Shown here: piece after piece, positions 28,872 to 61,613 of the stretch | Position numbering within the stretch: position 1 is the first letter of the stretch | Layout of the letters: the number at the start of each line of letters is the position of its first letter | The notes under the pieces: model-generated | Databases searched by the model: none | The model's input: only the letters and a program-made list of their open reading frames with translations | Told to the model about the DNA's origin: nothing | Source of the DNA: Cognaticolwellia beringensis | Lineage (GTDB): Bacteria; Pseudomonadota; Gammaproteobacteria; Enterobacterales; Alteromonadaceae | Direction: 5' to 3' | Length of the DNA: 64,000 nucleotides | Assembly (NCBI RefSeq): GCF_002076895.1 | Contig: NZ_CP020465.1 | Coordinates: forward strand, 434,001 to 498,000 | Made by a program: the position numbers and the translations under genes

Positions 28872-30127
28872 GATGGATTGAAGTCCAACCTACAAAGAGC
28901 TTACGGGTGATTTGTAGGTCGGCATTTATGCCGTCAACTTGAAGGCTATATCGATATCTATACAGTAATCTGTGCAGGTGAAGTCATAACGATAAGGCGG
29001 TTAAATTTCATTTAACTTGATGGACTGAAGTCCAACCTACAATGGGCTGCCAATGAGCTGTGATTTGTAGGTCGGCATTTATGCCGTCAGCTTGAAGGTT
29101 ATGTCCATACCTATACAGTAACCTGTGCAGGCAAGGTTATAACGATAGGGCTTGTTAAATTTCATTTAACTTGATGGACTGAAGTCCAACCTACATAGAG
29201 CTTACGGGTGATTTTTTGTAGGTCGGCATTTATGCCGTCAATGTGAAGGCTATATCCATACCTATACAGTAATCTGTGCAGGTGAAGTCATAACGATAGG
29301 GCTTGTTAAATTTCATTTAACTTGATGGACTGAAGTCCAACCTACAATGGGCTGCCAATGAGCTGTGGTAATTTGTAGGTCGGCATTTATGCCGTCAGTT
29401 TGAAGGCTGTAGTTGTACCTATACAGTAATCTGTGCAGGCAAGGTTATAACGATAGGGCTTGTTAAATTTCATTTAACTTGATGGACTAAAGTCCAACCT
29501 ACAATGGGCTGCCAATGAGCTGTGGTGGTTTTGTAGGTCGGTATTTATGCCGTCAGCTTGAGGGATTTAGCCATACCTATACAGTTATCTGTGCAGGCAA
29601 GGTTATAACGATAGGGCTTGTTAAATTTCATTTAACTTGATGGACTGAAGTCCAACCTACAATGGGCTGCCAATGAGCTGTGGTGATTTGTAGGTCGGCA
29701 TTTATGCCGTCAGTTTGACGGATTTAGCCATATCTATACAGTAATCTGTGCAGGTAAAGTTCTAACGATAGGGCTTGTTAAGTTTCATTTAACTTGATGG
29801 ACTGAAGTCCAACCTACAATGGGCTGCCAATGAGCTGTGGTGGTTTTGTAGGTCGGCATTTATGCCGTCAGCTTGAGGGATTTAGCCATACCTATACAGT
29901 TATCTGTGCAGGCAAGGTTATAACGATAGGGCTTGTTAAATTTCATTTAACTTGATGGACTGAAGTCCAACCTACAATGGGCTGCCAATGAGCTGTGGTG
30001 GTTTTGTAGGTCGGCATTTATGCCGTCAGCTTGAAGGTTATACCTATACATTAATCTGTGCAGGTGAAGTCATAACGATAGGGCTTGTTAAATTTCATTT
30101 AACTTGATGGACTGAAGTCCAACCTAC
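28872..30127. repeat. REP-like tandem array 1 (9 half-sites A, 8 half-sites B)
   Basis: Occupies the gap between cysN and the permease. Half-site A is GATGGACTGAAGTCCAACC plus TAC, starting at 28872, 29020, 29173, 29324, 29481, 29639, 29796, 29954 and 30106 (period 148-158). Half-site B is GTAGGTCGGCATTTATGCC plus GTCA, starting at 28914, 29068, 29218, 29375, 29533, 29690, 29848 and 30006. A and B face each other through CCTAC/GTAGG; each has an inner stem (GGACT/AGTCC and GGCAT/ATGCC). The 83-base stretch from B to the next A is also conserved and holds ACAG/CTGT and GTTAAAT/ATTTAAC palindromes. No gene is visible within. Confidence 0.95.
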
Positions 30128-30228
30128 ATAGAGCCTATAGGTGATTGTATTTGGTCTGTCATTTGTATTGTTGGTATTCTAAAAAATCGAGATATTTTAC
30201 CTTTAGAACATAGGATTAGGTTTACATT

Positions 30229-34046: not shown

Positions 34047-35057
34047 ATGAGTTTGTTGATCACAGGTGGCACAGGTTTTATTGGTAGCCATACGGTTGTT
34101 GAATTACTTGCACTAGATAAAGATATTGTTATTGTTGATAACTTATCAAATTCTTCTACATTAGTACTTGATCGTATTAAACAAATTACGGGGAAGTCGG
34201 TAACATTTATTCAAGCTGATATATGTGATCGCCAAGCATTAACGAAAGTATTTGAGCAGCACGACATTGACGCTGTTGTTCATTTTGCTGGTTTAAAAGC
34301 GGTTGGTGAGTCTAGTGAAATTCCGTTAAGTTATTATCATAATAATGTTTCTGGTTCGGTAACGCTTTTGCAAGTAATGGCTGAGCAGAATGTTAAAAAT
34401 TTAGTCTTTAGTTCATCAGCCACCGTTTATGGTGAGAATAATCCTTCGCCACTTGATGAAACCATGCCGACATCGGCGACCAATCCTTATGGTCAAACCA
34501 AATTGATGATAGAAAATATTTTGTTTGATTTGGCGCGCAGCGATGAACAATGGTCTATTGCTTGTTTACGCTATTTTAACCCGATTGGCGCACATGAGTC
34601 TGGCCTTATTGGTGAAAATCCTAACGGTATTCCGAATAATTTATTGCCTTACGTTTCACAAGTTGCTGTTGGCCGATTAGCGCAGTTACAAATTTTTGGT
34701 GATGACTATCAAACAGTTGATGGTACAGGCGTTAGAGATTACATTCATGTTGTTGATTTAGCGCAAGGGCATGTTAAAGCGTTAGAAAAATTAAGCGAAA
34801 TTAAAGGCTGTGTACCGATTAATTTAGGTACTGGCAATGGTACGTCGGTTTTAGAGATTGTTAATACCTTTAAAGAGATATCAGGACAAGATATACCGTA
34901 CAACATTGCCCCACGACGTGCTGGAGATATTGCTACGGTATATGCTGACGCGAGTGTCGCGAATACCTTGCTTGGTTGGCATGCTAAACGGGATTTAGCC
35001 ACGATGATTGCAGATACATGGCGCTGGCAGTCACAAAACCCTAATGGTTTTGAATAG
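34047..35057 (+). CDS. galE: UDP-glucose 4-epimerase
   Basis: Interconverts UDP-glucose and UDP-galactose. The 336 residues match GalE. Seen: TGGTGFIGSHTVVELL from residue 6, VVHFAGLKAVGES, FSSSATVYGENNPSP, NPYGQTKLMIENIL (Tyr/Lys), ACLRYFNPIGAHESG and TGVRDYIHVVDLA. It has AAGGA before the ATG. The last 30 or so bases of the gene (from about 35024) are reproduced in the spacers of the repeat array that follows. Confidence 0.96.
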   Translation: MSLLITGGTGFIGSHTVVELLALDKDIVIVDNLSNSSTLVLDRIKQITGKSVTFIQADICDRQALTKVFEQHDIDAVVHFAGLKAVGESSEIPLSYYHNNVSGSVTLLQVMAEQNVKNLVFSSSATVYGENNPSPLDETMPTSATNPYGQTKLMIENILFDLARSDEQWSIACLRYFNPIGAHESGLIGENPNGIPNNLLPYVSQVAVGRLAQLQIFGDDYQTVDGTGVRDYIHVVDLAQGHVKALEKLSEIKGCVPINLGTGNGTSVLEIVNTFKEISGQDIPYNIAPRRAGDIATVYADASVANTLLGWHAKRDLATMIADTWRWQSQNPNGFE

Positions 35058-35072
35058 TTAGCGTTTGTTATT

Positions 35073-35846
35073 GTAGGTCGGCATTTATGCCGTCATGTCT
35101 GGTGCTTATATATCCATAGAGCGATGGGCTGAAGCCCAACCTACAAAAAATCTGGCAGTGACAAACCTGAATAGGTAGCGTTGTTATTGTAGGTCGGCAT
35201 TTATGCCGTCATGTGTGGTGTTTATATATTCATAGAGCGATGGGCTGAAGCCCAACCTACAAAAATAGAAAACCTAATGATTTTGAATAGTTAGCGTTTG
35301 TTATTGTAGGTCGGCATTTATGCCGTCATGTCTGGTGTTTATATATTCATAGAGCGATGGGCTGAAGCCCAACCTACAAAAATAGAAAACCTAATGGTTT
35401 TGAATAGGTAGCGTTGTTATTGTAGGTCGGCATTTATGCCGTCATGTGTGGTGTTTATATAATTAATAGGGCGATGGGCTGAAGCCCAACCTACAAAAGA
35501 TCTGGCAGTGACAAACCTGAATAGTTAGCGTTGTTATTGTAGGTCGGCATTTATGCCGTCATGTCTGGTGCTTATATATCCATAGAGCGATGGGCTGAAG
35601 CCCAACCTACAAAAAATCTGGCAGTGACAAACCTGAATAGTTAGCGTTTGTTATTGTAGGTCGGCATTTATGCCGTCATGTGTGGTGTTTAGATAATAAA
35701 TAGAGCGATGGGCTGAAGCCCAACCTACAAAAAATCTGGCAGTGACAAACCTGAATAGTTAGCGTTTGTTATTGTAGGTCGGCATTTATGCCGTCATTTG
35801 TGGTGTTTATATAATAAATAGAGCGATGGGCTGAAGCCCAACCTAC
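35073..35846. repeat. REP-like tandem array 2 (7 units of about 117 bases)
   Basis: Each unit has GTAGGTCGGCATTTATGCC plus GTCA (first at 35073, last at 35774), about 27 bases, then GATGGGCTGAAGCCCAACC plus TAC (first at 35123, last at 35825), then a spacer of about 45 bases. Spacers come in two kinds, one with CTGGCAGTGACAAACC and one with AACCTAATGGTTTTGAATAG; both derive from the galE 3' end. The A-type stem is GGGCT/AGCCC instead of the GGACT/AGTCC of array 1. Confidence 0.95.
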
Positions 35847-35863
35847 AAAGAGCTGCAAAAACT

Positions 35864-39106: not shown

Positions 39107-40355
39107 TCCCTGTGAGATTTTAATGATCTTTGATTAATTTTACAGGGAGAAGTGAATGAGAAGGACAGGAGATATAGGTATACGTCTAGGCTGTGCTTTT
39201 AGGAAACCCGTGATTTGTCTTTACCTCCTTCAGTTCTCCTTATTTTCTCCCTGTGAGACGTTTTAAATAATTTTACAGGGAGGCGTGAATGAGAAGGACA
39301 GGAGGTATAGATTTTAGCATACGTATAGGCTGTGCTGTGCTTTTAGGAAACCCGTGATTTGTCTTTACCTCCGGCGGTTCTCTTTGCTTTCTCCCTGTGA
39401 GACATTTTAAATAATTTTACAGGGAGGCGTGAATGAGAAGGACAGGAGGTATAGGTTTTAGCATATGTATAGGCTTTGCTGTGCTTTGTTTTGCTTTTAG
39501 GAAACCCGTGATTTGTCTTTACCTCCGGCTATTCTCCTTGTTTTCTCCCTGTGAGACATTTTAAATAATTTTACAGGGAGGCGTGAATGAGAAGGACAGG
39601 AGGTATAGGTTTTAGCATATGTATAGGCTTTGCTGTGCTTTGTTTTGCTTTTAGGAAACCCGTGATTTGTCTTTACCTCCTTCAGTTCTCCTTATTTTCT
39701 CCCTGTGAGACATTTTTAATAATTTTACAGGAAGGAGTGAATGAGAAGGGAAGGAGATATAGGTTTTAGCATACGTGTAGGCTGTGCTTTGTTTTGCTTT
39801 TAGGAACCCCGTGATTTGTCTTTACCTCCGGCTATTCTCCTTGTTTTCTCCCTGTGAGACATTTTAAATAATTTTACAGGGAGATGTGAATGAGAAGGGA
39901 AGGAGATATAGGTTTTAGCATACGTATAGGCTGTGCTTTGTTTTGCTTTTAGGAAACCCGTGATTTGTCTTTACCTCCTTCAGTTCTCCTTATTTTCTCC
40001 CTGTGAGACATTTTAAATAATTTTACAGGGAGGCGTGAATGAGAAGGACAGGAGGTATAGGTTTTAGCATACGTATAGGCTGTGCTGTGCTTTGCTTTTA
40101 GGAAACCCGTGATTTGTCTTTACCTCCTGCTATTCTCTTTGTTTTCTCCCTGTGAGACGTTTTTATCAATTTTACAGGGAGGCGTGAATGAGAAGGGAAG
40201 GAGGTATAGGTTTTAGCATACGAATAAGCTGTGCTGTGCTTTGTTTTGCTTTTAGAAAACCCGTGATTTGTCTTTACCTCCGGCGGTTCTTCTTTTTTCC
40301 TCCCAGTGAGATATCTTTAATATTTCACCGGGAGGAAAGCATAAGAAGAGCAGGC
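39107..40355. repeat. tandem array 3 of nested palindromes (9 hairpins, period about 149)
   Basis: CTCCCTGTGAG-type left arms start at 39107, 39247, 39391, 39545, 39699, 39848, 39997, 40146 and 40300 (last copy CTCCCAGTGAG), each followed about 20 bases later by TTTTACAGGGAG (last CACCGGGAG). Between hairpins every unit carries GAGAAGGACAGGAGGTA, then about 70 bases with AGGAAACCCGTGATTTGTC, then TACCTCC, five variable bases and TTCTC. ACAGGGAG-N8-GAGAA-N5-GGAGGTA is matched by an exact inverted block set before the next CTCCCTGT. Short open frames inside (for example 39587-39769) are repeat artefacts. The remainder of the 1.5 kb gap, including 40356-40477, shows nothing else. Confidence 0.93.
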
Positions 40356-49248: not shown

Positions 49249-49275
49249 GAGCGTTGCAACAAGATGGAATTAAAA

Positions 49276-50583
49276 ATGACACAATCAAAATTAATAACAG
49301 GCAGCGGAGAACGCATAGCAATTGTCGCTGGCTTACGCACGCCTTTCGCAAAACAAGCTACCGCTTTTCATGGCATTCCTGCCGTCGACTTAGGTAAAAT
49401 TGTGGTCAATGAATTACTACAAAAGCATGACGTTGATCCTAAAATTATTGACCAGTTAGTCTTTGGGCAAGTTGTGCAAATGCCAGAAGCGCCAAATATT
49501 GCCCGTGAGATTGTTTTAGGCACAGGGATGAATGTTCATACTGATGCCTACAGTGTTTCACGCGCTTGTGCGACTAGCTTTCAATCAACCGTGAATGTTG
49601 CAGAGTCAATTATGGCGGGTTTTGTTGATGTTGGCGTTGCTGGTGGTGCAGATTCAACATCAGTTGCTCCTATTGGTGTTTCTAAGAAACTCGCACGCAC
49701 CTTACTTGATTTAAGTAAGGCTCGTTCATTTGGTGCGAAAATGGCGTTAATTCGTCAACTTAACTTTAAAGATATTTTACCGGTTCCGCCTGCCGTTGCT
49801 GAATATTCTACCGGCCTGTCAATGGGACAAACTGCAGAGCAAATGGCAAAAACCCATGGGATTACCCGTGAAGCACAAGATGCATTAGCTCATCGTTCAC
49901 ATACCTTAGCGACCAAAAGTTGGCAAGAAGGCAAGCTTGCGGGTGAGGTGATGACCGCACACAGCGAACCGTACAAGTCGTTTATTGAAAAAGATAACTG
50001 TATTCGTGAAAATTCTGAATTAGCCAGTTACGCAAAATTACGTCCGGTATTTGATCGCAAACACGGTACGGTAACTGCTGCGACAAGTACGCCACTTACC
50101 GATGGTGCTTCGGCAATTTTAATGATGCGTGAAGGTCGCGCGAAAGAACTAGGCTATAAGCCGTTAGGTTATATTCGCAGTTACGGTTTTGCCGCTATTG
50201 ACGTATGGGAAGATATGCTAATGGGGCCAAGCTATGCCACACCAATTGCCTTGCAGCGTGCAGGCATGAATTTAGCTGATTTAGATTTAATTGAAATGCA
50301 TGAAGCATTTGCAGCACAAGCACTTGCCAACGTAAAAATGTTTGCTAGTAATAAGTTTGCTCAAACCCATTTAGGTCGCGATAAGGCCATTGGTGAAATC
50401 GATATGGACAAGTTTAATGTTATGGGTGGTTCGTTAGCTTATGGTCATCCGTTTGCCGCAACAGGCACGCGCTTGATTGTACAAACATTGAATGAATTAA
50501 ACCGTCGTGGCGGCGGTGTTGGCTTAACCACAGCTTGTGCGGCGGGTGGTTTAGGTGCGGCTATGATTGTGGAGACAGACTAA
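49276..50583 (+). CDS. fadI: acetyl-CoA acyltransferase (3-ketoacyl-CoA thiolase), FadI type
   Basis: Thiolytic last step of fatty acid beta-oxidation. The product is 435 residues from the ATG at 49276 (GGA 8 bases upstream), like the 436-residue E. coli FadI; an ATG at 49264 would add 4 residues. Seen: nucleophile Cys98 in SRACATSFQ, the [12 protein letters not shown] block with its catalytic His, [16 protein letters not shown] and the C-terminal [16 protein letters not shown] with the second Cys. Its stop overlaps the fadJ ATG by 1 base. Confidence 0.95.
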
Positions 50584-52736
50584 TGACTGATACAACAAAT
50601 ATAGAACAAAAAGAGAATAATAAGACTTTTAGTTTAGCGCGCCAAGAAAATGGCATAGCACATTTGATTATGGACGTGAAAGGCGATTCCATGAACACAT
50701 TGAAAGCTGAATTTGCCGATGAAATCGCTGAAGTATTAAAAGAGATACGCGAAGATAAGACCATTATTGGCTTAGTGTTAACCAGTGGTAAAGCGGATTC
50801 TTTTGTCGCGGGTGCGGATGTACACATGTTAGCGAACTGTACTACTGCTTCTGAAGCAACAGCTCTGTCACGCCAAGGGCAAATGATTTTTGATCAACTT
50901 GAAAACTTATCTATTCCAGTTGTGGCTGCGATCCATGGCGCTTGTTTAGGCGGCGGATTAGAACTTGCTATGGCATGTCATGCCAGAGTTTGTAGTGACA
51001 GCCCTAAAACTGCATTAGGTTTGCCTGAGGTACAGTTAGGTCTGTTGCCTGGTGGTGGTGGTACACAAAGATTACCAAAACTTGTTGGTATTCAAAAGTC
51101 ATTAGATATGATGCTTACTGGCAAGCAATTGCGTGGCATTCAAGCGTTAAAAGCTGGCTTGGTCAATGATGTAGTACCGAATAGTGTTTTACTAAAATCT
51201 GCAGAGCAGCTTGCACTGTCAGGTAAAGCAAAACCTAAAGCGCGTAAATTATCAATGATGGATAAGTTACTTGAAGGTAATGGCTTAGGTCGAAGTGTTT
51301 TATTTAACAAAGCGACGAAAATGGTATTAAGTCAAACCAAAGGTAATTATCCAGCGCCTTTAAAAATAATTGACTGTATTCGAACTGGTGTTGAACAAGC
51401 ACCTTCAAAAGGTTATCAAGTAGAGGCGGACCATTTTGGTCAATTAGTGATGAGTGATGTTTCGGCTCAGCTTCGACAGGTATTTTTTGCCACCACTGAT
51501 ATGAAAAAAGAGCAGGGTGTTGAAGGTGTTGCTCCTGAAAAAATAACTAAAGCAGCGGTACTTGGAGGCGGCCTAATGGGTGGTGGCATCGCTTTTGTTA
51601 CTGCAACAAAAGCTAACTTGCCAGTGCGCATAAAAGATATTTCACATCAAGGTATTAGCTACGCTTTGAAATATGGTTATGACTTGTTAAACAAAAAAGT
51701 TAAACGACGCTTTATGCGACATAGCGAAATGCAAAGTCAGTTAGCCTTGATAACAGGTACTACAGATTATACTGGTTTTAGTCATATGGATATTGTTGTT
51801 GAAGCTGTATTTGAAGATTTAACTTTAAAACAAAATATGGTGGCTGAAATTGAAAGTCATTGTAAAGAAGGTACTATTTTCGCAAGTAATACTTCAAGTT
51901 TGCCCATCGGTAAAATAGCTGAGAAGGCTTTGCGTCCAGAAAATGTTATTGGTCTGCACTACTTTTCTCCGGTGGATAAAATGCCATTGGTTGAGATAAT
52001 TCCTAATGAAAAAACCTCAGACCAAACGATATCAACAACCGTTGCATTTGCGAAACAACAAGGGAAAACACCTATTGTTGTTAAAGATAAAGCGGGCTTT
52101 TATGTGAATCGTATTTTGGCACCTTATATGAATGAGGCCGCGATACTTTTACTTGAAGGTTGCTCTATTGAAGCGCTTGATAAAGCTATGGTGAAGTTTG
52201 GTTTTCCGATTGGCCCTATGCAGTTATTAGATGAAGTTGGTATCGATGTAGGGGCTAAAATTGGTCCAATTTTGCAAGCAGATTTAGGCGATAGATTTGC
52301 ACCTCCACCGGCATTTTCTAAATTAATTGATGATGGCCGTTTAGGTAAAAAAACCAAGAAAGGCTTTTATCAATACAATACTAAAAGTAAGAAAAAGCTG
52401 GTCGATAAAAGCGTATATACCCTGTTAGGACTGCAAGTTAGTAATACAAAGGTTACAGATGCGCAAGCTGAACGGTGTGTTTATATGATGCTTAATGAAG
52501 CTGCTCGTTGTTTAGATGAAAATATTATTCGTAATGCACGTGATGGTGATATTGGTGCTCTTTTTGGTATTGGCTTCCCTCCTTTTCTTGGCGGCCCATT
52601 CCAATATATGGATAAAATTGGCGCTATTACGGTAGTGAGTAAACTGAAACAGTGGCAAGCCGAGTTTGGTGATCGCTTTACACCCTGTGATGCGTTAGTG
52701 AAAATGGCAGAGCAAAATGATAGTTTTTATAAATAA
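50583..52736 (+). CDS. fadJ: multifunctional fatty acid oxidation protein alpha subunit, FadJ type
   Basis: Partner of FadI carrying enoyl-CoA hydratase and 3-hydroxyacyl-CoA dehydrogenase activities. The 717 residues match FadJ (714). The hydratase domain (about 1-200) shows GADVHML, HGACLGGGLELAMACHARV and LPEVQLGLLPGGGGTQRLP; the dehydrogenase domain (about 325-717) shows AAVLGGGLMGGGIAFVTA for NAD, FASNTSSLPI and GLHYFSPVDKMPLVEII. The ATG at 50583 overlaps the fadI stop (TAATG), which couples translation. An intrinsic terminator follows. Confidence 0.96.
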   Translation: MTDTTNIEQKENNKTFSLARQENGIAHLIMDVKGDSMNTLKAEFADEIAEVLKEIREDKTIIGLVLTSGKADSFVAGADVHMLANCTTASEATALSRQGQMIFDQLENLSIPVVAAIHGACLGGGLELAMACHARVCSDSPKTALGLPEVQLGLLPGGGGTQRLPKLVGIQKSLDMMLTGKQLRGIQALKAGLVNDVVPNSVLLKSAEQLALSGKAKPKARKLSMMDKLLEGNGLGRSVLFNKATKMVLSQTKGNYPAPLKIIDCIRTGVEQAPSKGYQVEADHFGQLVMSDVSAQLRQVFFATTDMKKEQGVEGVAPEKITKAAVLGGGLMGGGIAFVTATKANLPVRIKDISHQGISYALKYGYDLLNKKVKRRFMRHSEMQSQLALITGTTDYTGFSHMDIVVEAVFEDLTLKQNMVAEIESHCKEGTIFASNTSSLPIGKIAEKALRPENVIGLHYFSPVDKMPLVEIIPNEKTSDQTISTTVAFAKQQGKTPIVVKDKAGFYVNRILAPYMNEAAILLLEGCSIEALDKAMVKFGFPIGPMQLLDEVGIDVGAKIGPILQADLGDRFAPPPAFSKLIDDGRLGKKTKKGFYQYNTKSKKKLVDKSVYTLLGLQVSNTKVTDAQAERCVYMMLNEAARCLDENIIRNARDGDIGALFGIGFPPFLGGPFQYMDKIGAITVVSKLKQWQAEFGDRFTPCDALVKMAEQNDSFYK

Positions 52737-53146: not shown

Positions 53147-53350
53147 ATGATTTTGTTATTAGGCGTGGCATTAAGTGTTGTTTTTTCTATATTTTTTTAT
53201 TGTCAGGCAATGAGCAGTGGCTTAGGTGTAAAGCGATGGGCAACAGCAGGTTTGATGTTTGGGCCTTTTGTATGGCCAATGTTCTGTATGAAAAAACGTT
53301 TAAAGACATATCAGCGTTTTGGTTTTGATTGTTTGTTATTTTCAGCATAA
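53147..53350 (+). CDS. small membrane protein of unknown function
   Basis: A 67-residue protein beginning with a membrane segment (ILLLGVALSVVFSIFFYCQA), then SGLGVKRWATAGLMFGPFVWPMFCMKKRLKTYQRFG, where a second hydrophobic turn is followed by a basic tail. GAGTAGAG precedes the ATG at a suitable distance. The layout resembles short conserved membrane proteins of Alteromonadales, but I cannot name a family. It is convergent with the small peptide operon on the - strand. Confidence 0.6.
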   Translation: MILLLGVALSVVFSIFFYCQAMSSGLGVKRWATAGLMFGPFVWPMFCMKKRLKTYQRFGFDCLLFSA

Positions 53351-53469: not shown

Positions 53470-53574
53470 TTAATTCCACCAAGTGCTTGCAGGCATTTCT
53501 TTTATTTCGATGCTTGCAGCGATAGTGTTTTCTATCTTTTCAGCTATAAATAATGCTTTAATTAAGTTAATCAT
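53470..53574 (-). CDS. 34-residue peptide coupled to the nonapeptide-repeat gene
   Basis: A tiny gene starting at an ATG on the - strand (53572-53574) and ending at TAA (53470-53472). The perfect Shine-Dalgarno AGGAGG (53579-53584) overlaps the stop codon of the upstream repeat protein, so translation is probably coupled. The peptide starts MINLIKALFIAEKIEN, is amphipathic or helical in its first half and ends with PASTWWN. No family recognised. Its ribosome site and spacing make it a better candidate gene than its length suggests. Confidence 0.6.
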   Translation of the reverse strand: MINLIKALFIAEKIENTIAASIEIKEMPASTWWN

Positions 53575-53582
53575 AAAGCCTC

Positions 53583-53894
53583 CTAGATGCGAACTACGCC
53601 ACGTTTAGTGCCAATACGAACTACACCACGTTTTGTTCCAGCTTCTACTGTATCTAATTGATCTTGATTAATGCGTACTACACCGCGTTTAGTACCAATA
53701 CGAACTACACCGCGTTTAGTACCAATACGAACTACACCGCGTTTAGTGCCGGCTTCTACAGTGTCTAATTGTTCTTGGCTAATGCGGACTACACCACGCT
53801 TAGTGCCTGCTACATCGGTTACTAATGTGTTGAGGTTATCGACTGATACTGGAGTTACTGACATTGTCAAAGATAAAATTAATGAACTAAGCAT
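53583..53894 (-). CDS. repeat protein with six GTKRGVVRI nonapeptides, unknown function
   Basis: A 103-residue protein with AAGGAAT before its ATG. Residues 1-29 form a short hydrophobic, leader-like segment (MLSSLILSLTMSVTPVSVDN) without basic residues. The remainder is built from GTKRGVVRI units, six in all, in groups of one, three and two, separated by the spacers SQEQLDTVEA and NQDQLDTVEA; the protein ends on the last unit. The six units are identical in amino acids yet their DNA differs at nearly every wobble position (Gly as GGC, GGT, GGA; Arg as CGT, CGC; Val as GTA, GTT, GTC), pointing to selection on the peptide. Each unit contains a Lys-Arg pair. It might be a multi-copy peptide precursor or a binding repeat. 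No processing or export gene lies beside it. Confidence 0.75.
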   Translation of the reverse strand: MLSSLILSLTMSVTPVSVDNLNTLVTDVAGTKRGVVRISQEQLDTVEAGTKRGVVRIGTKRGVVRIGTKRGVVRINQDQLDTVEAGTKRGVVRIGTKRGVVRI

Positions 53895-54032
53895 TGTATT
53901 CCTTATTAATAAATTAAGTTAATTTCAATATTAATAAAGCTAGAATCATGCCAATAATGAAAGCCTTTATTTATAGGCCTTCTAACGTGTTTTTACCACG
54001 AAATCACGGTGCCAAAAAATCGACACTTTATC

Positions 54033-57000
54033 TTAGATTGAACTATTTCCAAACGAAGTGGATTTATTCGTGATTTGAAAAGAAAGTAAATATTTTTGAA
54101 AGTCGCCTTGAGGAAGTGGTTTGCTATAAAGGTAACCTTGTAATTGCTCACACCGTAAGCCTGAAAGAAAGCTCAGTTGTTGGTTGGTTTCAACGCCTTC
54201 TGCGACAACTTGCATGCCTAGGTTATGCGCAATAGTTACTATGGTTGCTACCATGTTTCGACCTTGTTCAGATGTTTCTATATCATCAACAAAAGCTTTG
54301 TCTATTTTTAGCGTGTTTAATGGGAATTTTTTCAAATATGCTAATGAAGAGTATCCTGTACCAAAATCGTCTAATGATAAATGGATTCCCATCGCGCGAA
54401 TTTGTAACATAGTATCGATGGCTTTTTGTGGCGAATCCATTACCGTGCCTTCCGTTATTTCTAACTCTAGATACTTCGCTGGTAATGCACTTTCTTTTAA
54501 TGCATCAGCAATCATCGCCACTAAGTTGGGTTGAGTAAACTGCACGGCTGATAGATTAACTGCAACTCGGCCGTCAAAAAGACCTGAATCAACCCATTTT
54601 TTGGTGGCAATACAGGCCTTTCGTAGGACAACTTCACCAATATCTATAATTTGTCCTGTTTCTTCTGAAACTGGGATAAATACAACAGGACTAATTATGC
54701 CTTTTCTTGGTGTTTCAAAACGAACTAGGGCTTCCATTCCCGCTATTTTCCCTGTCGCGATCTCGATTTTAGGTTGATAAAAAACTGAAAATAAATCTTC
54801 TTTTAAACCGTGTCGTATTAAACTTTCTATTTGCAGGCGTTTAACCGCAGTTTTATTCATTGAGTCACTGAAAAACTGGTATTTATTACCACCAGTATTT
54901 TTAGCATGATACATAGCTGTATCAGCATTCTTGAGGAGTTCTTGAGGGCTTTTACCGTCTTCAGGGTAGAGTACAATGCCAATACTGCTATAAAGTACAA
55001 TTTCTTGGCTTTTAAGTCTCAGTGGGAGGGCAATAGACTTTAAAACCTCTTTGCCGATAGTGGTGATAGTATGAATATCATTGGTGTTTTCAATAATTAA
55101 ACTAAATTCATCACCACCTAATCGATATACGGTATCTTGACTTCGCCCTAAACTTCTAATGCGCTCAGCAACTTTGCAAAGTAAAAGATCGCCAACTTCG
55201 TGGCCCAAAGAGTCATTTACTTTTTTAAAGTTATCTAAATCGAAAACTAATAACGCATGTGGCATTTTATTGTTAACTAATTTTTGTTGATTAGTCTGGA
55301 AAAAAGCCCGGTTAGGTAGCCCAGTCAAGGTGTCAGTATTGGCAAGTTTTCTTAATTCGGCTTCTGTTTGTTTACGTTTAGTAATATCAGAGAAAACACC
55401 AACAAAGTGCGATATATTACCATTTTCATCACGAATGATATCAATATTTAAGTCAGTTAAATAAATGTCGCCGTTGTCACGAGTATTTTCAATTTCACCG
55501 TGCCAACTGCCTTTGGTAATTAAATGTTTTTTTACGTTTTGGTTAAAGCTGTCAGGGTATTGCTCAAATTTAAGCAAAGTCCCGCGCATTTGTAACTTAG
55601 TTCTTCCTGTAATACTTTGAAAAGCTTTATTAACATCAACGACGGTAAATTGACGATCGTAAATTACAATCGCATCTGAAATGTTTTCGATACATTTAGC
55701 AAAAAGCTTTAAGCGTTCATCCGCACGTTTTATTTGACTAATATCTTTCAGAGTTCCTGTCATTCGACTGGGTTTGTTCTTTTCATCTCGTTCAACAATT
55801 TTTCCGCGATCGAGAACCCAAATCCATTTTTCATCTTTATCTTTTACACGATAGGTCGCTTCAAAATGTTGACTACTGTCTTCAAAATGATCATTTAATG
55901 CTTCGCGCACACGAGGAATATCATGTTGGTGAATGTTAGTTTGATCGGCGCCAACATTTCGTTTGCCATCTTGCGGGAATTCTAGAATACCCCAGATATT
56001 TGATCGGAATATCTTTCCACTCTTAATGTTCCAATCCCACATTTCATCACCGCTGCCCCAAAGCGATAATTTAAGGCGCTCTTCACTTAACTTTATTTGT
56101 AAGTGATATAGTCGCTTATGTCTCATCTGTTGCAAAATATAAGCGAAAATTAACAGTGTAATTAGGCTATAGATTAATAGTGCGCTAGTCGATAACCACC
56201 ACGGTGGCATTATAGTAATATTTAGTGATTTTATTGCGCTTTCTTGTTTGTTTTGTAAGTCGTATGCTTGTACTTCAAAGAGATAGTCGCCAGAGTTCAA
56301 ATTAGTATAAGTTGCTCTTTGGTTGTTTTTGCCTGAATCAATCCACTTATCTTCCAATCCTATTAAACGGTAACGATAATTTAACTGGTTTGGTAGCTTT
56401 GTGTTAGGGGTTATAAATTCAATGCTAAATTGGGATTGTGTGTGTTTCAACGTAAGAGTGGTTAAAAAGTTAGGTGAATGCTCTAAATAAAATAAGTCCT
56501 CAGTAGTATTTGAGGGTAAAGTACTAGCTACAGGGACTTCTTTGTTTGCTATAAGTATATTAGAAATAATGGGGGGAGGTGTTTGTTGTCCTATCCGAAA
56601 AATTTCTTGAGGAATGAATGTATGAAAACCATTAATTCCACCGAAAAAAATTGTATCATCAGACGTGAGTAATGAGCTATCACTAATATACTCATTATCA
56701 CTTAATAACATATCTTTATTGTAAGACTTTACTAATTTACTGTTTGGATCAACTGAGTTGATACCTATATTCGTTGATAACCAACCTTTTCCTGTTGAAT
56801 CAATAACAATATCAGCAATAAAATTATTACTAAGGCCATTTTTTTCGTTAAAAAAAACATTAGTATCATTTTTTTTGTTTATTATTGCTAAGCCATTGCG
56901 ACGAGAACCTAACCAAATCCATTCATCGGACAAAGCAATCGTTGAAATTTCCCCAAATGTACTATTATTCGATAATTCGTATAAAATATCTGAAAAATCA

Positions 57001-58622
57001 GACTCTACTATATTAAAGGTTAAAATCTCACCCTTTTTGGTGGAAAGCCATATTTCATTACTCTTTTCGTAATTTAATGTTGTAAATATGCTACCACTTT
57101 CATTCTCATACGTTTCGAATTGATTGCTTTGAATGTCGAATGAGGCTAACTGCATTTCGCTATCAATAAACCATATTTTATGTTCTATTAAAAATAATTG
57201 GCTTAAATTATTGTGATAGGAATTGTTTTTCCAAAATTCATTTTCAGTTATAGTTAAAGTTTGAGTATCAAAGTAATAAAGGCTTCCTGGTTGGTTTGGA
57301 CTTTCTGGTTCAGCTCGGAACCAAAAATTATCCTTAGTATCTATCATTAAATGAGAAATAGATGACTTAGTCTCAACTTTTAAATGAGGAACCTTTTCAT
57401 CTGAATTTAAGTAACTTATTTTTCCATCATCAGTCGCAAACCAAGTCCTTCCATCTTTAGATTCAGCAAATGCATATACAGAGCTTGGAGCTTCATCATA
57501 GCTAAATAATCCATGTCGAATTTTTAACTGTAAGCTGTTGAAAGTGTTAATGCCGGTACCGTGGGTACCAATCCAAATATTATCAGCACTGTCTTTAAAA
57601 ATTTTTAAGATATAATTGTTGGAAATTGCATTTTTATGCTGAACTGTTTGATATGCAGCTACATTTCCAGATAACAGATTGATTATGTTTAGTCCATTTA
57701 GCGTACCAAGCCATACCATTGAATTATCTAACAATGTGATAGTTCTGACATTGTTAGATAATAACTTAACGTTTACATTTTCTTTATCCTCAGAGTAATG
57801 TTTTTTAATTTCATAATCTTGAGAGACGACAAAAAGGCCATTATTAGTAGCTAGCCAATATTGGTTATCTATAAATTTGAGATCGTAAAGGGCATCTGCG
57901 TTAAGTTTTAAGTTCCATTTATTTTCATCGCTTAAAGAAATTGCAAAAGTCAGTGTACTATTGGCTAAATATATACCTTTATCATAAGTACCAAGCCAAT
58001 AATTACCTTTTTTATCTTGAAAAATGGTTTTAATTTCTTTTAAAGCGGTATCAAAACCACGAATCCTTATTCGCGAAAAATTTTTATTCTCTGGATCGAA
58101 TTTATGTAGGCCTTCTTTGGTGGAAACCCAAGTGTTATTATTGGGGTCTTGATAGATATCCCAAATTTCGTTGTCTTTTAGTGAGTTACTATCGTTAGCT
58201 TGATGGAGAAAATTATCAAAATTATTTAATGATTCGTTATATCGGCTTAACCCTTCATTTGTACCAACCCAGAGAACGTCATTGTTATCTATAAAGACTT
58301 TTCGGATAAAGTTGTCAGCAATTGATTTTTTATCGGTGCTGTCGTGACGATAATAAACAAAGTTTTTACCATCATAACGATTTAATCCATCTTGGGTGGC
58401 TATCCATATAAAGCCATTTTTATCTTGAATAATATCGTAAACATAACTTTGGGACAGGCCTTCGGCGATAGAGATGCGTTCAAATTTCAGAGGGTTTTGA
58501 TTTATGTTGTTTTCTGAGGCTATAACTTTACTAACAGGGAATAGCAAAACCAGCATAGCTAAGACAGCAAGCGTAGTATGAAGTTGAGAAATTAATCTAT
58601 TTTTAAAAAGAAGCAAAAGCAC
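54033..58622 (-). CDS. beta-propeller sensor diguanylate cyclase/phosphodiesterase (PAS-GGDEF-EAL)
   Basis: A 1529-residue membrane sensor. Order: signal segment (about 17-35), two seven-bladed-type propellers made of Reg_prop repeats such as IWIATQDGLNRYDG and VWVGTNEGLSRYNE (about 45-690), a Y_Y_Y domain (about 720-800), a membrane helix (WWLSTSALLIYSLITLLIFAYIL), two PAS domains (about 845-1085), GGDEF (about 1090-1250) and EAL (about 1265-1510). GGDEF is intact (YRLGGDEFSL) and so is EAL (MEALVRFE, LDDFGTGYSSLAYL, VVAEGVET). It could both make and degrade cyclic di-GMP in response to a periplasmic ligand. The small peptide operon starts 138 bases downstream on the same strand. Confidence 0.94.
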   Translation of the reverse strand: MLLLLFKNRLISQLHTTLAVLAMLVLLFPVSKVIASENNINQNPLKFERISIAEGLSQSYVYDIIQDKNGFIWIATQDGLNRYDGKNFVYYRHDSTDKKSIADNFIRKVFIDNNDVLWVGTNEGLSRYNESLNNFDNFLHQANDSNSLKDNEIWDIYQDPNNNTWVSTKEGLHKFDPENKNFSRIRIRGFDTALKEIKTIFQDKKGNYWLGTYDKGIYLANSTLTFAISLSDENKWNLKLNADALYDLKFIDNQYWLATNNGLFVVSQDYEIKKHYSEDKENVNVKLLSNNVRTITLLDNSMVWLGTLNGLNIINLLSGNVAAYQTVQHKNAISNNYILKIFKDSADNIWIGTHGTGINTFNSLQLKIRHGLFSYDEAPSSVYAFAESKDGRTWFATDDGKISYLNSDEKVPHLKVETKSSISHLMIDTKDNFWFRAEPESPNQPGSLYYFDTQTLTITENEFWKNNSYHNNLSQLFLIEHKIWFIDSEMQLASFDIQSNQFETYENESGSIFTTLNYEKSNEIWLSTKKGEILTFNIVESDFSDILYELSNNSTFGEISTIALSDEWIWLGSRRNGLAIINKKNDTNVFFNEKNGLSNNFIADIVIDSTGKGWLSTNIGINSVDPNSKLVKSYNKDMLLSDNEYISDSSLLTSDDTIFFGGINGFHTFIPQEIFRIGQQTPPPIISNILIANKEVPVASTLPSNTTEDLFYLEHSPNFLTTLTLKHTQSQFSIEFITPNTKLPNQLNYRYRLIGLEDKWIDSGKNNQRATYTNLNSGDYLFEVQAYDLQNKQESAIKSLNITIMPPWWLSTSALLIYSLITLLIFAYILQQMRHKRLYHLQIKLSEERLKLSLWGSGDEMWDWNIKSGKIFRSNIWGILEFPQDGKRNVGADQTNIHQHDIPRVREALNDHFEDSSQHFEATYRVKDKDEKWIWVLDRGKIVERDEKNKPSRMTGTLKDISQIKRADERLKLFAKCIENISDAIVIYDRQFTVVDVNKAFQSITGRTKLQMRGTLLKFEQYPDSFNQNVKKHLITKGSWHGEIENTRDNGDIYLTDLNIDIIRDENGNISHFVGVFSDITKRKQTEAELRKLANTDTLTGLPNRAFFQTNQQKLVNNKMPHALLVFDLDNFKKVNDSLGHEVGDLLLCKVAERIRSLGRSQDTVYRLGGDEFSLIIENTNDIHTITTIGKEVLKSIALPLRLKSQEIVLYSSIGIVLYPEDGKSPQELLKNADTAMYHAKNTGGNKYQFFSDSMNKTAVKRLQIESLIRHGLKEDLFSVFYQPKIEIATGKIAGMEALVRFETPRKGIISPVVFIPVSEETGQIIDIGEVVLRKACIATKKWVDSGLFDGRVAVNLSAVQFTQPNLVAMIADALKESALPAKYLELEITEGTVMDSPQKAIDTMLQIRAMGIHLSLDDFGTGYSSLAYLKKFPLNTLKIDKAFVDDIETSEQGRNMVATIVTIAHNLGMQVVAEGVETNQQLSFLSGLRCEQLQGYLYSKPLPQGDFQKYLLSFQITNKSTSFGNSSI

Positions 58623-58817: not shown

Positions 58818-61613
58818 TTAATATTTTCTTTGACACTTTTTTAATAAAGTTTCGATATTTTCATTAATAGTGATACTTTTTGCCATTTGCTCTAATTGCG
58901 CGCCGTTTTCGTAACTCAATAATGCCAATCGATCTTTACTTTCTGCGCCATGAAAATTTTGCTGGAGGAATTCAGCGACATCGTTTATTGATAAACTTTC
59001 AATGATTGAGATCAGTTTTTGTTTTTGGCTAAATGATGCCTCTTTATTACAAATGGCAGCCCAATAACGCTGGCTTTTAATTCTCAAATTTGAGTCTTTT
59101 TCTTGTAACTGACTAGCTAAGCCAAATTGTAAATGCTGCCAATGCTCAGCAGGTAAATTTGTAATGTAATTGTTAGAACGAGCAATAAAGTCGTCCATTG
59201 CTTTTGTTAACGTAACAGAGTCGGTGTGTGGTGATTGAATATAAAAAGCAATGCCAGGATAGCGATTAATAGGGATAAAGCCGACACCAACTAAATAACC
59301 ATATTGCTTCTCTGTGCGCATTTCTTGGAAGAAGGTGGGAGATAGTAACTGATTAGTCAACATGGTTAATGCAACTGTACGTAAATCTTTGTTCGCCATG
59401 GGGTAGTAAAGTAGGGCTGCATGGTCATGCTCTGGCAGTTCCATGGGAAGTGTTATCGCTCCCAAACCTTGAATGTCGATACAAGGCGTTTGCACTTGAT
59501 TGCTTTCTGACAACTTGCCAGCAAATACTTGTTTGATATCTGTAATAATTTTGTCAGCAGATTGTTTGGACCAATTGCCGTGAATTAGCATATCTACTGC
59601 AGTGTTTTCAAATATTCGAGGTACAAAACTTTTAAACTGTTGAAACTCTATTTTTTCAAGGGCGTTAATTAAGGTTTGGCTACTAGGGCTTTTCGGTTGC
59701 ATTGTTGCGCTAAGGCTGGCAAATAATTGCGATATTGATTTGCTATTTTCTGCATTATGCCAATGACTGAGTAGTTGTTGCTTAAATAATTCGAATTTAT
59801 TTGGACAGAATTTTCCTTGCATCAGGCTGGCTAAAAGTAGCGGTAATAGCTGCTCTTGCTTGGTACTAATACCTGATAATTGCAGTGTTAACCCACTTTG
59901 GTGGGAATATAAATGATAGTGAATACCCGCTAACTCGGCATCGTAATGTTCTTCTGTAACTGCGTCGCTATATAAGTCAATAAATAACCGTGTCATTGCT
60001 ATTGTGCTTGCACTTTCTATCACTGCTGGAGAGTCTATGGATAGATAGATGTAGCCTTTGGGGGTATTAAAACTGGTGTCATGCTTAAACCAAACATTTA
60101 GTCCACTTTGTTGATATATAATTGCTGGCGGAGTCAGGTTGTTATTTTTTTCACTATCATCTTTTACTAGCTCTGGCCTAGCGACTATGTAAGGATTTTT
60201 GTTCGGTAATGAGAGCTCGGGTAAATAAGCCGCCTGTTGCCATTGCTCAATTTGTTGTTGCTCAATATCGTTGACCGTGTAGGGCACTTGATACCATTTA
60301 CTGGTGTTACTATGTGGCTGTTCAGGTCCATCTTTATCGATAGAAATGATACGCATATTGGAAGCCACCATAAACTCAAGTAAAGCAGTTAATGTTGCTG
60401 TGTTTTGTCCTTCCATCACGTAATCGCCAAAGATGTAATCTTGCTCAGGGTAATGCTGCATGTTAATGACGAGTTGGCTAACTGAGTCGAGTGGTGATAA
60501 CTTTTCCTGGTAAGAGAATGATAATTCAGCGAGTGATTTTTTTTCTTGGTAATATTGCTCGTTAAGTGGTTCTTTTCTTAATAGATTTAAGTAAGAGAAA
60601 ACGATGCTGACAATAGCTGTTATATTTTTCGCCCCTAGTTCTGAAAGCGAGATGCTAATATTGAAATCTTTAAAGTTAGAGCCATTAATACCTGAACCTG
60701 CCGTTAAAGCCAAAGCCCATTGTTTACTTTTTAACAATGACAAAATACTACCAGGGCCTTCATGACCAATTAAATAGGCCAGAATAGATTCAGGTTTTTG
60801 ACGATAAAATTTGTCAATACTTGGCATAGCGAAACTGATGATCAGTTGTTGATCATTTTTAACTGGTTGGACAGATATCCATTTTTGTTGATGCTTTGGA
60901 AGGTAAAGAGGATGGTTAATTTTAGCTTTCGAAATTCCATTAGATTTAACCTTAGAAAAATGGTTATTGGCTAAGTTTTCTAGTTCAGTGAGAGATTGCG
61001 GACCTTCTAACACAAGGGTCATAAAATTTGCTTGATAGTTTGCTTGAAAAAAATCACACAATTCTTCGCGTAAATTGTAACCATCTTTGTCTGCTAAGGT
61101 TTCACTGCTACCAACAGAAAATTTAGCGAAAGGGTGATCTTGGTTTATCGTTTCTTTATGAACGTCGTATAACCGTCGAATATCATCTTTAAGCTTGAGT
61201 TTGAATTCGGCGTCAATATTCTTACGTTCTTTATTAACAAATTCTTCAGATAATAATGGCGCGGTGAAAAATTCACCAAAACGTTCAATGGCAGAGCTGA
61301 AGTGTTGGTGTCCTATATCAAAGAAAAAGCAAGTATGTTCAGTTGCGGTCCATGCATTATTGCTGCCACCATGCTGATTAATAAATTGTTGGTATTCGCT
61401 GCCATCAGGGAAATTTTTTGTGCCAAGAAATAACATATGTTCGAGAAAGTGGGCAAGACCCTGGCGATGCGTAGGATCATCAAAGTGGCCAACGTTGACT
61501 GCTAATGCTGCGGCAGATTTATTTGATTCAGGATTATGAACCAATAAAGCTCTTAAGCCATTGCCTAGCGTAATTGTTTGATATTGTTTAGCGTCATTCG
61601 GGCTTTTTTTCAC
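58818..61613 (-). CDS. insulinase family (M16) zinc protease, pitrilysin-like
   Basis: A 931-residue M16A peptidase. Seen: inverted zinc motif HFLEH at 55-59 with the third ligand Glu136 (77 residues after the last His, as in pitrilysin), NNAWTATEHTCFFFD, and in the second half the substrate loop RTEKQYGYLVGVGFIP. No clear signal peptide is present, unlike E. coli pitrilysin, which suggests a cytoplasmic location. The start is a GTG at 61613 preceded by GGGAGCG. M16 enzymes degrade small peptides; a link to the nearby peptide genes is only positional. The 195-base gap downstream shows no clear terminator. Confidence 0.9.
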   Translation of the reverse strand: MKKSPNDAKQYQTITLGNGLRALLVHNPESNKSAAALAVNVGHFDDPTHRQGLAHFLEHMLFLGTKNFPDGSEYQQFINQHGGSNNAWTATEHTCFFFDIGHQHFSSAIERFGEFFTAPLLSEEFVNKERKNIDAEFKLKLKDDIRRLYDVHKETINQDHPFAKFSVGSSETLADKDGYNLREELCDFFQANYQANFMTLVLEGPQSLTELENLANNHFSKVKSNGISKAKINHPLYLPKHQQKWISVQPVKNDQQLIISFAMPSIDKFYRQKPESILAYLIGHEGPGSILSLLKSKQWALALTAGSGINGSNFKDFNISISLSELGAKNITAIVSIVFSYLNLLRKEPLNEQYYQEKKSLAELSFSYQEKLSPLDSVSQLVINMQHYPEQDYIFGDYVMEGQNTATLTALLEFMVASNMRIISIDKDGPEQPHSNTSKWYQVPYTVNDIEQQQIEQWQQAAYLPELSLPNKNPYIVARPELVKDDSEKNNNLTPPAIIYQQSGLNVWFKHDTSFNTPKGYIYLSIDSPAVIESASTIAMTRLFIDLYSDAVTEEHYDAELAGIHYHLYSHQSGLTLQLSGISTKQEQLLPLLLASLMQGKFCPNKFELFKQQLLSHWHNAENSKSISQLFASLSATMQPKSPSSQTLINALEKIEFQQFKSFVPRIFENTAVDMLIHGNWSKQSADKIITDIKQVFAGKLSESNQVQTPCIDIQGLGAITLPMELPEHDHAALLYYPMANKDLRTVALTMLTNQLLSPTFFQEMRTEKQYGYLVGVGFIPINRYPGIAFYIQSPHTDSVTLTKAMDDFIARSNNYITNLPAEHWQHLQFGLASQLQEKDSNLRIKSQRYWAAICNKEASFSQKQKLISIIESLSINDVAEFLQQNFHGAESKDRLALLSYENGAQLEQMAKSITINENIETLLKKCQRKY

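Follow-up and report, generated by a model that had tools for sequence, protein, structure and literature searches.

In the agr (AgrD/AgrC) and competence (ComC/ComD) systems of Gram-positive bacteria, a single-copy peptide precursor is encoded near the gene for its receptor, a histidine kinase with a membrane sensor domain, and the ligand and sensor domain are hypervariable while the output domain and the flanks are conserved. In yeast, a eukaryote, the precursor MFalpha1 is processed by Kex2 and its peptide is perceived by a GPCR. MFalpha1 is described as carrying several copies of the mature signalling peptide, in a number that varies among close isolates (PMC5850478), and fungal Kex2-processed repeat proteins and ustiloxin-type RiPP precursors are described as secreted precursors with repeated cores (PMC7329392). 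On the sensor side, the Bacteroides HTCS sensor BT4663 is described as binding disaccharides (PMC5121618), and the PDB title of its entries (4a2l/4a2m) names it a heparin/heparan-sulphate hybrid two-component sensor.

Here we describe a locus of Cognaticolwellia beringensis, analysed within a window of 64,000 nt, that can be compared with each of these systems. As in MFalpha1, one precursor contains multiple copies of a peptide; unlike MFalpha1, the system is bacterial, is paired with a Reg_prop GGDEF-EAL sensor, has acidic spacers in some species and has no recognised processing site. As in agr and ComCD, the precursor gene lies beside the gene of a putative membrane receptor (in 50 of 55 distinct loci), and the presumed ligand and the ectodomain are hypervariable while the output domain is conserved, without visible charge complementarity; unlike agr and ComCD, the partner is a cyclic-di-GMP enzyme with a large propeller ectodomain, and the hosts are Gram-negative. 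The sensor shares with BT4663 a double seven-bladed propeller and a Y_Y_Y periplasmic domain, judging from its domains and predicted fold, but carries a PAS-PAS-GGDEF-EAL output instead of a hybrid histidine kinase and has a linked peptide gene. The repeated cores recall ustiloxin-type precursors, except that no modification enzymes are recognised and dibasic sites are not conserved. We consider it probable that the precursor gives rise to an exported peptide ligand and that the adjacent sensor is its receptor, the two diversifying together and setting cyclic-di-GMP. The module has the look of a so far undescribed 'password' system of Gram-negative bacteria that is based on peptides; in the open-licence literature, a scope that takes in neither subscription papers nor preprints, none of the matches listed describes a pairing of repeat peptides with Reg_prop sensors.

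The repeat precursor and its relatives

The features of the locus are collected in Table 1. The original prediction had described the precursor as a leader of 29 residues and, behind it, GTKRGVVRI six times without change, arranged 1-3-2 around two decapeptide spacers, and the translation confirms this composition (29+9+10+27+10+18=103 aa). Searches against Pfam and NCBIfam gave no match for the precursor or for the 34-aa ORF behind it. The leader pattern MLSS.ILSL.MS..P is kept in most relatives, and a hydrophobic N-terminal stretch is found in all 60 precursors examined (60 of 61, L042 being excluded because its start is missing), the lowest best 10-residue mean hydropathy being 1.66. The window precursor has no basic residue in its leader, nor does the Colwellia leader generally, so the case for export rests on leader hydrophobicity, together with the more Sec-like leaders of the relatives L139 and L151. 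A promoter scan at the locus was uninformative (4 sites vs 3.3 expected), and no terminator-like site was found at the precursor locus.

Table 1. Features of the repeat-peptide locus and its flanks, in window coordinates.
Feature	Position	Strand	Basis
fadI, syntenic flank, divergence control	49264..50583	+	named by reading and by its place beside fadJ
fadJ, syntenic flank, divergence control	50535..52736	+	Pfam, recurring neighbour
34-aa ORF MINLIKALFIAEKIENTIAASIEIKEMPASTWWN, conserved accessory small protein, 8 nt after precursor	53470..53574	-	translation, relatives
AGGAGG of 34-aa ORF, overlapping precursor stop codon	53579..53584	-	read from DNA
Repeat-peptide precursor ORF, 103 aa, ATG start	53583..53894	-	stop included in coordinates
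GTKRGVVRI units 5-6, last unit at exact protein end	53586..53639	-	translation
Acidic spacer NQDQLDTVEA	53640..53669	-	translation
GTKRGVVRI units 2-4	53670..53750	-	translation
Acidic spacer SQEQLDTVEA	53751..53780	-	translation
GTKRGVVRI unit 1	53781..53807	-	translation
29-aa leader MLSSLILSLTMSVTPVSVDNLNTLVTDVA, hydrophobic N-terminus, export-signal-like	53808..53894	-	translation
AAGGAA, likely ribosome-binding site of precursor	53899..53904	-	read from DNA
Membrane sensor, 1529 aa from listed GTG: two Reg_prop propellers, Y_Y_Y, TM, PAS, PAS, GGDEF, EAL	54033..58622	-	Pfam domains, predicted fold
EAL domain, EAL and DDFGTG motifs present	54117..54818	-	Pfam, translation
GGDEF domain, GGDEF motif present	54882..55343	-	Pfam, translation
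Hypervariable ectodomain region, aa 401-720: most of propeller 2 and link to Y_Y_Y	56463..57422	-	sequence comparison
Sensor propeller 1, about aa 45-380	57483..58490	-	domains, predicted fold
Peptidase_M16, insulinase/pitrilysin-like, HFLEH zinc motif, directly upstream of sensor	58818..61613	-	Pfam M16 domains

The AGGAGG of the 34-aa ORF overlaps the precursor stop codon and the ORF starts 8 nt on, so the two genes are probably translationally coupled. Neither this small ORF nor the upstream sensor gene figures in the original prediction. A search with the 34-aa ORF found 28 loci, in Colwellia, Cognaticolwellia, Pseudocolwellia, Thalassotalea, Thalassomonas, Litorilituus and one further Alteromonadaceae. 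This small protein ends in ..EMPASTWWN, is more conserved than the peptide gene and is present in two copies in some genomes (L122, L125, L126); in other families of the order, a 36-38-aa ORF ending like ..LEVIQAKAWWK often takes its place. Between fadJ and the 34-aa ORF, on the fadJ strand, lies a 67-aa ORF (53147-53350, +) that has no Pfam match and has relatives in 45 of the 55 distinct loci.

Preserved relatives of the precursor exist, so neither of the outcomes that the original prediction had named as speaking against a functional peptide, a lack of relatives or frameshifted repeats, is what the genomes show. A single-sequence search found it in 23 of 98 genomes, the source genome included, among them 16 of the 17 of the genus, and a search with a 19-row profile found it in 65 of 395 family genomes and 15 of 52 genera. 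All 61 distinct proteins are open frames (L008, L015 and L042 are cut by contig ends), and their units are homogeneous in nearly all. Units were assigned by hand in 60 of the 61, L040 having no assignable unit, and amount to 55 different units of 6 to 10 residues across 60 precursor genes, with between 1 and 10 exact copies per gene. Almost all species have a unit of their own; examples are GTRRGTIRI, GTKRNQVRI, GTRPGTVRI, GKSHGKVRI, GRKASTIRI, DRKRRDVRI, GKNRGEGIRV, ARRNVRM and ASNKIRI. The unit forms the exact C-terminal end in 47 of 60 proteins, and in some species unit and spacer alternate in regular 9+10 repeats (e.g. L002, L007). The Lys-Arg pair, to which the original prediction had pointed in proposing a precursor that releases many copies of one peptide, is not general in the family, and a processing site of this kind is not supported as the key feature: the pair is missing from many units, e.g. 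GTRPGTVRI and GKSHGKVRI.

The six DNA copies in the window are, as predicted, all distinct and differ only at third codon positions, with a mean of 0.43 differences per codon. Across 779 within-gene copy pairs from 59 related genes, near copies included and copies with more than a third of their residues changed left out, pS is 0.353 vs a pN of 0.0085 (pooled pS/pN about 41), in agreement with the proposed purifying selection for copy identity. Synonymous divergence rules out a young duplication as the source of unit identity, as had also been argued, and together with unit homogeneity it supports the view of a protein built from many copies of one peptide. Relative to a random synonymous expectation taken from the codon usage of the window sensor, the codon mismatch between copies lies between 0 and 0.92, with a median of 0.39 (55 genes). 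It is 0.8 or more in 9 of the 55 genes, which are near synonymous saturation and whose protein units are still identical. In 8 of the 55 it is below 0.2; these arrays hardly differ in DNA, which shows that duplication or conversion takes place. Repeat arrays thus range from recently homogenised to near synonymous saturation, with protein units alike throughout. Concerted evolution by recombination alone, with no selection for unit identity, would produce arrays of the nearly identical kind, but it is extremely improbable as a general explanation in view of the near-saturated genes with identical units and the pooled pS/pN. L006 and L013 each have six units with near-saturated codons and differ by Ser/Thr in all six, the whole array having switched. 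Degenerate end copies occur in some genes (e.g. L012, L021, L028, L015, L071), and the L005 array mixes GTKRGEIRL and GTKRSEIRL.

Regular repeats raise the alternative of a structural or adhesive protein (solenoid, RTX-like or amyloid) in which selection for structure keeps the repeats alike. The 9+10 arrangement of L002 and L007 would suit such a protein, and surface repeat proteins can evolve in concert. The AlphaFold2 model of the precursor, however, is disordered (mean pLDDT 39.7, pTM 0.16, from an alignment of only 19 rows) and leaves a solenoid fold unsupported. The RTX calcium-binding repeat follows the motif GGxGxDxUx, which GTKRGVVRI and its relatives do not match, and the window protein has no Pfam match. 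Furthermore, single-copy homologues exist, the unit length is not constant, no Pfam repeat is matched, and the co-divergence with the ectodomain described below would be left unexplained; we regard a structural role as highly unlikely.

The adjoining sensor and its neighbourhood

The periplasmic half of the sensor is predicted to adopt the double-propeller fold of BT4663. This half is hypervariable, and the cyclic-di-GMP half is far more conserved. The neighbourhood sample comprises 66 loci longer than 6 kb, which represent 55 distinct loci. Linkage is conserved: where the two genes are neighbours, the sensor lies directly upstream of the precursor on the same strand (median gap 175 nt). On the other side of the repeat gene, FadJ is convergent in 50 distinct loci. 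The loci without an adjacent sensor are L042 and L079, where the repeat gene is at a contig end, L089, from a fragmented genome bin, and L076 and L077. In the latter two the repeat gene (SAKRGSRRL units) lies away from the sensor; each genome has a sensor orthologue (G322, G332) elsewhere, and the stretch read behind that orthologue contains no peptide gene.

The recurring neighbour clusters comprise the sensor, FadI/FadJ, MoxR-like and DUF58-like proteins, Peptidase_M16, small ORFs and others; the window's sensor, FadJ, M16 and small ORFs were checked against Pfam, and the remaining names were given by reading. The Peptidase_M16 gene recurs in 47 of the 55 distinct loci. Its best NCBIfam model is pitrilysin, at 534 bits vs a cut-off of 765, and it is PqqF-related but pitrilysin-like; the listed ORF has no obvious signal peptide. 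M16 peptidases cleave short peptides, which makes this gene a candidate for trimming or clearing the ligand. No RiPP modification enzyme was recognised among the recurring neighbours of the 66 loci (55 distinct), nor any dedicated exporter or maturation machinery. The original prediction had offered a RiPP-like or a signalling precursor; the signalling option gains from the linkage and from the co-divergence below, and the RiPP option loses with the lack of a recognised modification enzyme in the neighbourhood. Elsewhere in the window there are large tandem arrays at 28906-30128, 35051-35849 and 39194-40335, with periods of about 158, 117 and 149 bp, and GTAGGTCGGCATTTATGCCGTC occurs in the consensus unit of each of the first two arrays.

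Parallel divergence of the peptide gene and the ectodomain

Comparison of L025 with L028 reveals a 10.5-kb locus that is 0.88-0.99 identical per 200 bases outside two valleys. One valley covers the propellers (0.49-0.81) and the other the peptide-gene stretch (0.55-0.66), with about 2.4 kb at 0.88-0.97 between them; gaps count as mismatches in these windowed identities, as in those of the next two pairs. Both valleys recur, shallower and against a noisier background, in L025/L026 and L034/L096, where near-zero identity far upstream in the latter marks the end of the fetched L096 stretch. In 19 of 21 close pairs (the other two lacking a found 34-aa ORF), gap-excluded median DNA identity is 0.76 in propeller 1, 0.68 in propeller 2 and 0.85 in the cytoplasmic part, and 0.89 in the 34-aa ORF, 0.83 downstream and 0.73 in the peptide ORF, which is repetitive, so that its low identity is partly a matter of alignment and copy number. 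L036/L038, the only pair of the 19 that shares a unit, has not diverged in the peptide ORF (0.85, vs 0.83 downstream). The peptide gene and the ectodomain diverge in parallel.

Of all parts compared, the 34-aa ORF has changed least, which bears on the possibility that the peptide is an antimicrobial (bacteriocin) and that the sensor or the 34-aa ORF provides recognition or immunity. Units of the Colwellia group are basic, short and species-specific, and fast divergence is common in bacteriocin systems. An immunity protein would be expected to co-vary, unlike the 34-aa ORF with its median of 0.89; moreover, the partner is a cyclic-di-GMP sensor, units in other families are neutral or acidic (e.g. 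TAALPAIKVLDTQ, IEDQVGL), and export or maturation machinery is not recognised among the recurring neighbours. An antimicrobial role is therefore very unlikely in our judgement.

The mode of divergence differs between pairs. In L025/L028, about 2 kb of ectodomain is strongly diverged, the rest of the locus being about 95% identical. Here the pS of propeller 2 is 0.75 vs 0.20 for the cytoplasmic part, a contrast that speaks for a replaced ectodomain; exchange of alleles between species is a possible origin. In some pairs, such as ref/L021, pS is alike in all parts (0.55 and 0.56 in propeller 2 and the cytoplasmic part of ref/L021), amino-acid change alone is faster in the ectodomain, and pairwise dN/dS is 0.15, so neither replacement nor positive selection is supported there. 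Pairwise dN/dS in the hypervariable region is below 1 wherever computable.

Partial Mantel tests were made with 45 sensors, since 5 of the 50 have no FadJ/FadI in the fetched stretch; the partial L108 stands outside the sensor comparisons. Given the cytoplasmic part, FadJ and FadI, peptide distance correlates with propeller 1 (r=0.42, p 0.001), the middle region (r=0.43, p 0.001), the hypervariable region (0.26, p 0.001) and Y_Y_Y (0.20, p 0.004); the test ignores tree structure, and the correlation is weaker in the most variable region (0.26). Given propeller 1, the correlations of the peptide with the cytoplasmic part, FadJ and FadI are r=0.06, 0.03 and 0.03 (p 0.26-0.37), and that with FadJ given the cytoplasmic part and FadI comes close to significance (r 0.11, p 0.058). 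Three species pairs share one unit, and in two of them, L036/L038 and L046/L103, the hypervariable region still differs by 32-35%, so a new unit does not always accompany ectodomain change. Net charges of ectodomain and peptide show no complementarity (rho 0.003, n=69, with cores chosen by hand and L183 left out). In the same comparison, unit charge correlates with the charge of the cytoplasmic part (rho 0.53; 0.21, p 0.15, within the 50 Colwellia/Thalassotalea-type rows), which would be unexpected under the ligand model and probably reflects family structure.

The parallel divergence could be coincidental if the ectodomain and the peptide gene were independent hot spots, for example with an exposed receptor under pressure from phages or predators and the small gene changing for some other reason. 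Rapid divergence is common in exposed domains, and the same-unit pairs with divergent hypervariable regions are in line with such independence. Several findings speak against it: peptide and ectodomain correlate beyond what the cytoplasmic part and the flanking genes account for, a pN of 0.0085 shows that the peptide gene does not drift, the adjacency of the two genes is kept, and the genome's other Reg_prop sensors also lie next to repeats; we consider a coincidence of this kind quite unlikely.

Reach of the module and a proposed mode of action

The C. beringensis genome contains two further Reg_prop loci at E<=0.001, a hybrid histidine kinase and a Reg_prop-GGDEF protein, and both genes are preceded by a Peptidase_S8 gene with short C-terminal repeats, EGFIWRE and TDGMLWKT, respectively. 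Because both adjoin repeat genes, these sensors are unusable as a peptide-free control. The EGFIWRE subtilase (L189/L191, C1:1970500-1980000) has 697 aa and lies directly upstream of the kinase, and its repeat in G011 reads EGFIWNE; TDGMLWKT-type subtilases (L190/L192, L196-L208) lie upstream of the Reg_prop-GGDEF protein. Among 17 genus genomes, the source genome included, the EGFIWRE type is present in 3 and the TDGMLWKT type in 13. Across 16 subtilase loci, the repeats are mostly alike within a protein (copies are unequal in L194, L203 and L204) and differ between several, not all, species, the variants being TDGMLWKT, TDGMLWRT, TDGLLWKV, TDALIWKM and TDALLWRY, and EGFIWRE and EGFIWNE. A Reg_prop-like start follows the subtilase in 11 of 13 loci of the second type, and the kinase of the first type was seen in the source genome only.

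A sensor homologue was found at E<=1e-100 in 285 of 295 family genomes; many of the matches rest on the GGDEF-EAL part. Among 40 downstream stretches, from chosen homologues without an adjacent profile match, 28 carry, as judged by eye, a small leader-bearing ORF with a basic C-terminal or near-C-terminal peptide, in multiple copies in 17 and in a single copy in 11 (e.g. ..WKPGSVRI); 4 are ambiguous (L133, L136, L143, L148) and 8 have none. Of 20 such stretches from other families of the order, 14 are positive by eye, 5 lack such an ORF and 1 is ambiguous; the positives include L166, whose copies are unequal, and L159 and L168, in which no repeat is clear. Units there can be neutral or acidic (TAALPAIKVLDTQ, GAPNVRWLDTQVA, IEDQVGL), and several leaders resemble ordinary Sec signals (MIKGIIALSILSAFSSVVFA). 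For the sensor homologues of family f7, no small ORF was found in 4 of 4 stretches read, and the same holds for some other homologues.

The single-copy relatives, 11 of the 28 positives, are not obviously built for high secretion, and no dedicated exporter is recognised among the recurring neighbours. Both observations would suit a peptide that never leaves the cell that makes it and tunes the sensor according to conditions in that cell's periplasm (export rate, proteolysis or envelope state), without communication between cells, and the linkage and co-divergence data fit such a ligand in cis too. There would then be little reason, however, for such fast diversification or for exchange of ectodomains, and we think this reading unlikely, if worth serious consideration. 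The rapid paired diversification favours a signal that passes between cells.

For the exported ligand that we prefer, the domains and the comparisons above suggest the following sequence of events. The precursor would be exported through its hydrophobic leader and, in the Colwellia group, trimmed to peptides ending in ..(V/I)R(I/L/V) by the M16 neighbour or another peptidase. The linkage, fold and co-divergence suggest that the double beta-propeller ectodomain may bind the peptide, at one of its propeller faces, and binding would shift the GGDEF-EAL balance and thereby cyclic-di-GMP. Tandem copies would raise the dose per transcript, as in MFalpha1. Between species, peptide and ectodomain would diversify jointly, in the manner of the 'pherotypes' of pheromones and their receptors, with little change in the cytoplasmic output, the leader or the 34-aa ORF.

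A wider generalisation is tentative, and we put its chances at somewhat below even: Reg_prop sensors of marine Gammaproteobacteria may generally be receptors for ribosomal peptides from tandem-repeat precursors, free-standing or fused to a subtilase C-terminus, in a Gram-negative pheromone system often coupled to cyclic-di-GMP, with ligand and ectodomain exchanged like pherotypes. For most cyclic-di-GMP sensors no ligand is known, and little is known of ribosomal peptide pheromones in Gram-negative bacteria. With this module, a defined periplasmic receptor in dozens of species has a candidate ligand that is short, encoded in the genome and amenable to synthesis. Natural pairs of peptide and sensor predict specificity, and the ligand question becomes a one-peptide experiment. 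The module would be a clear bacterial case of receptor-ligand co-diversification legible from DNA.
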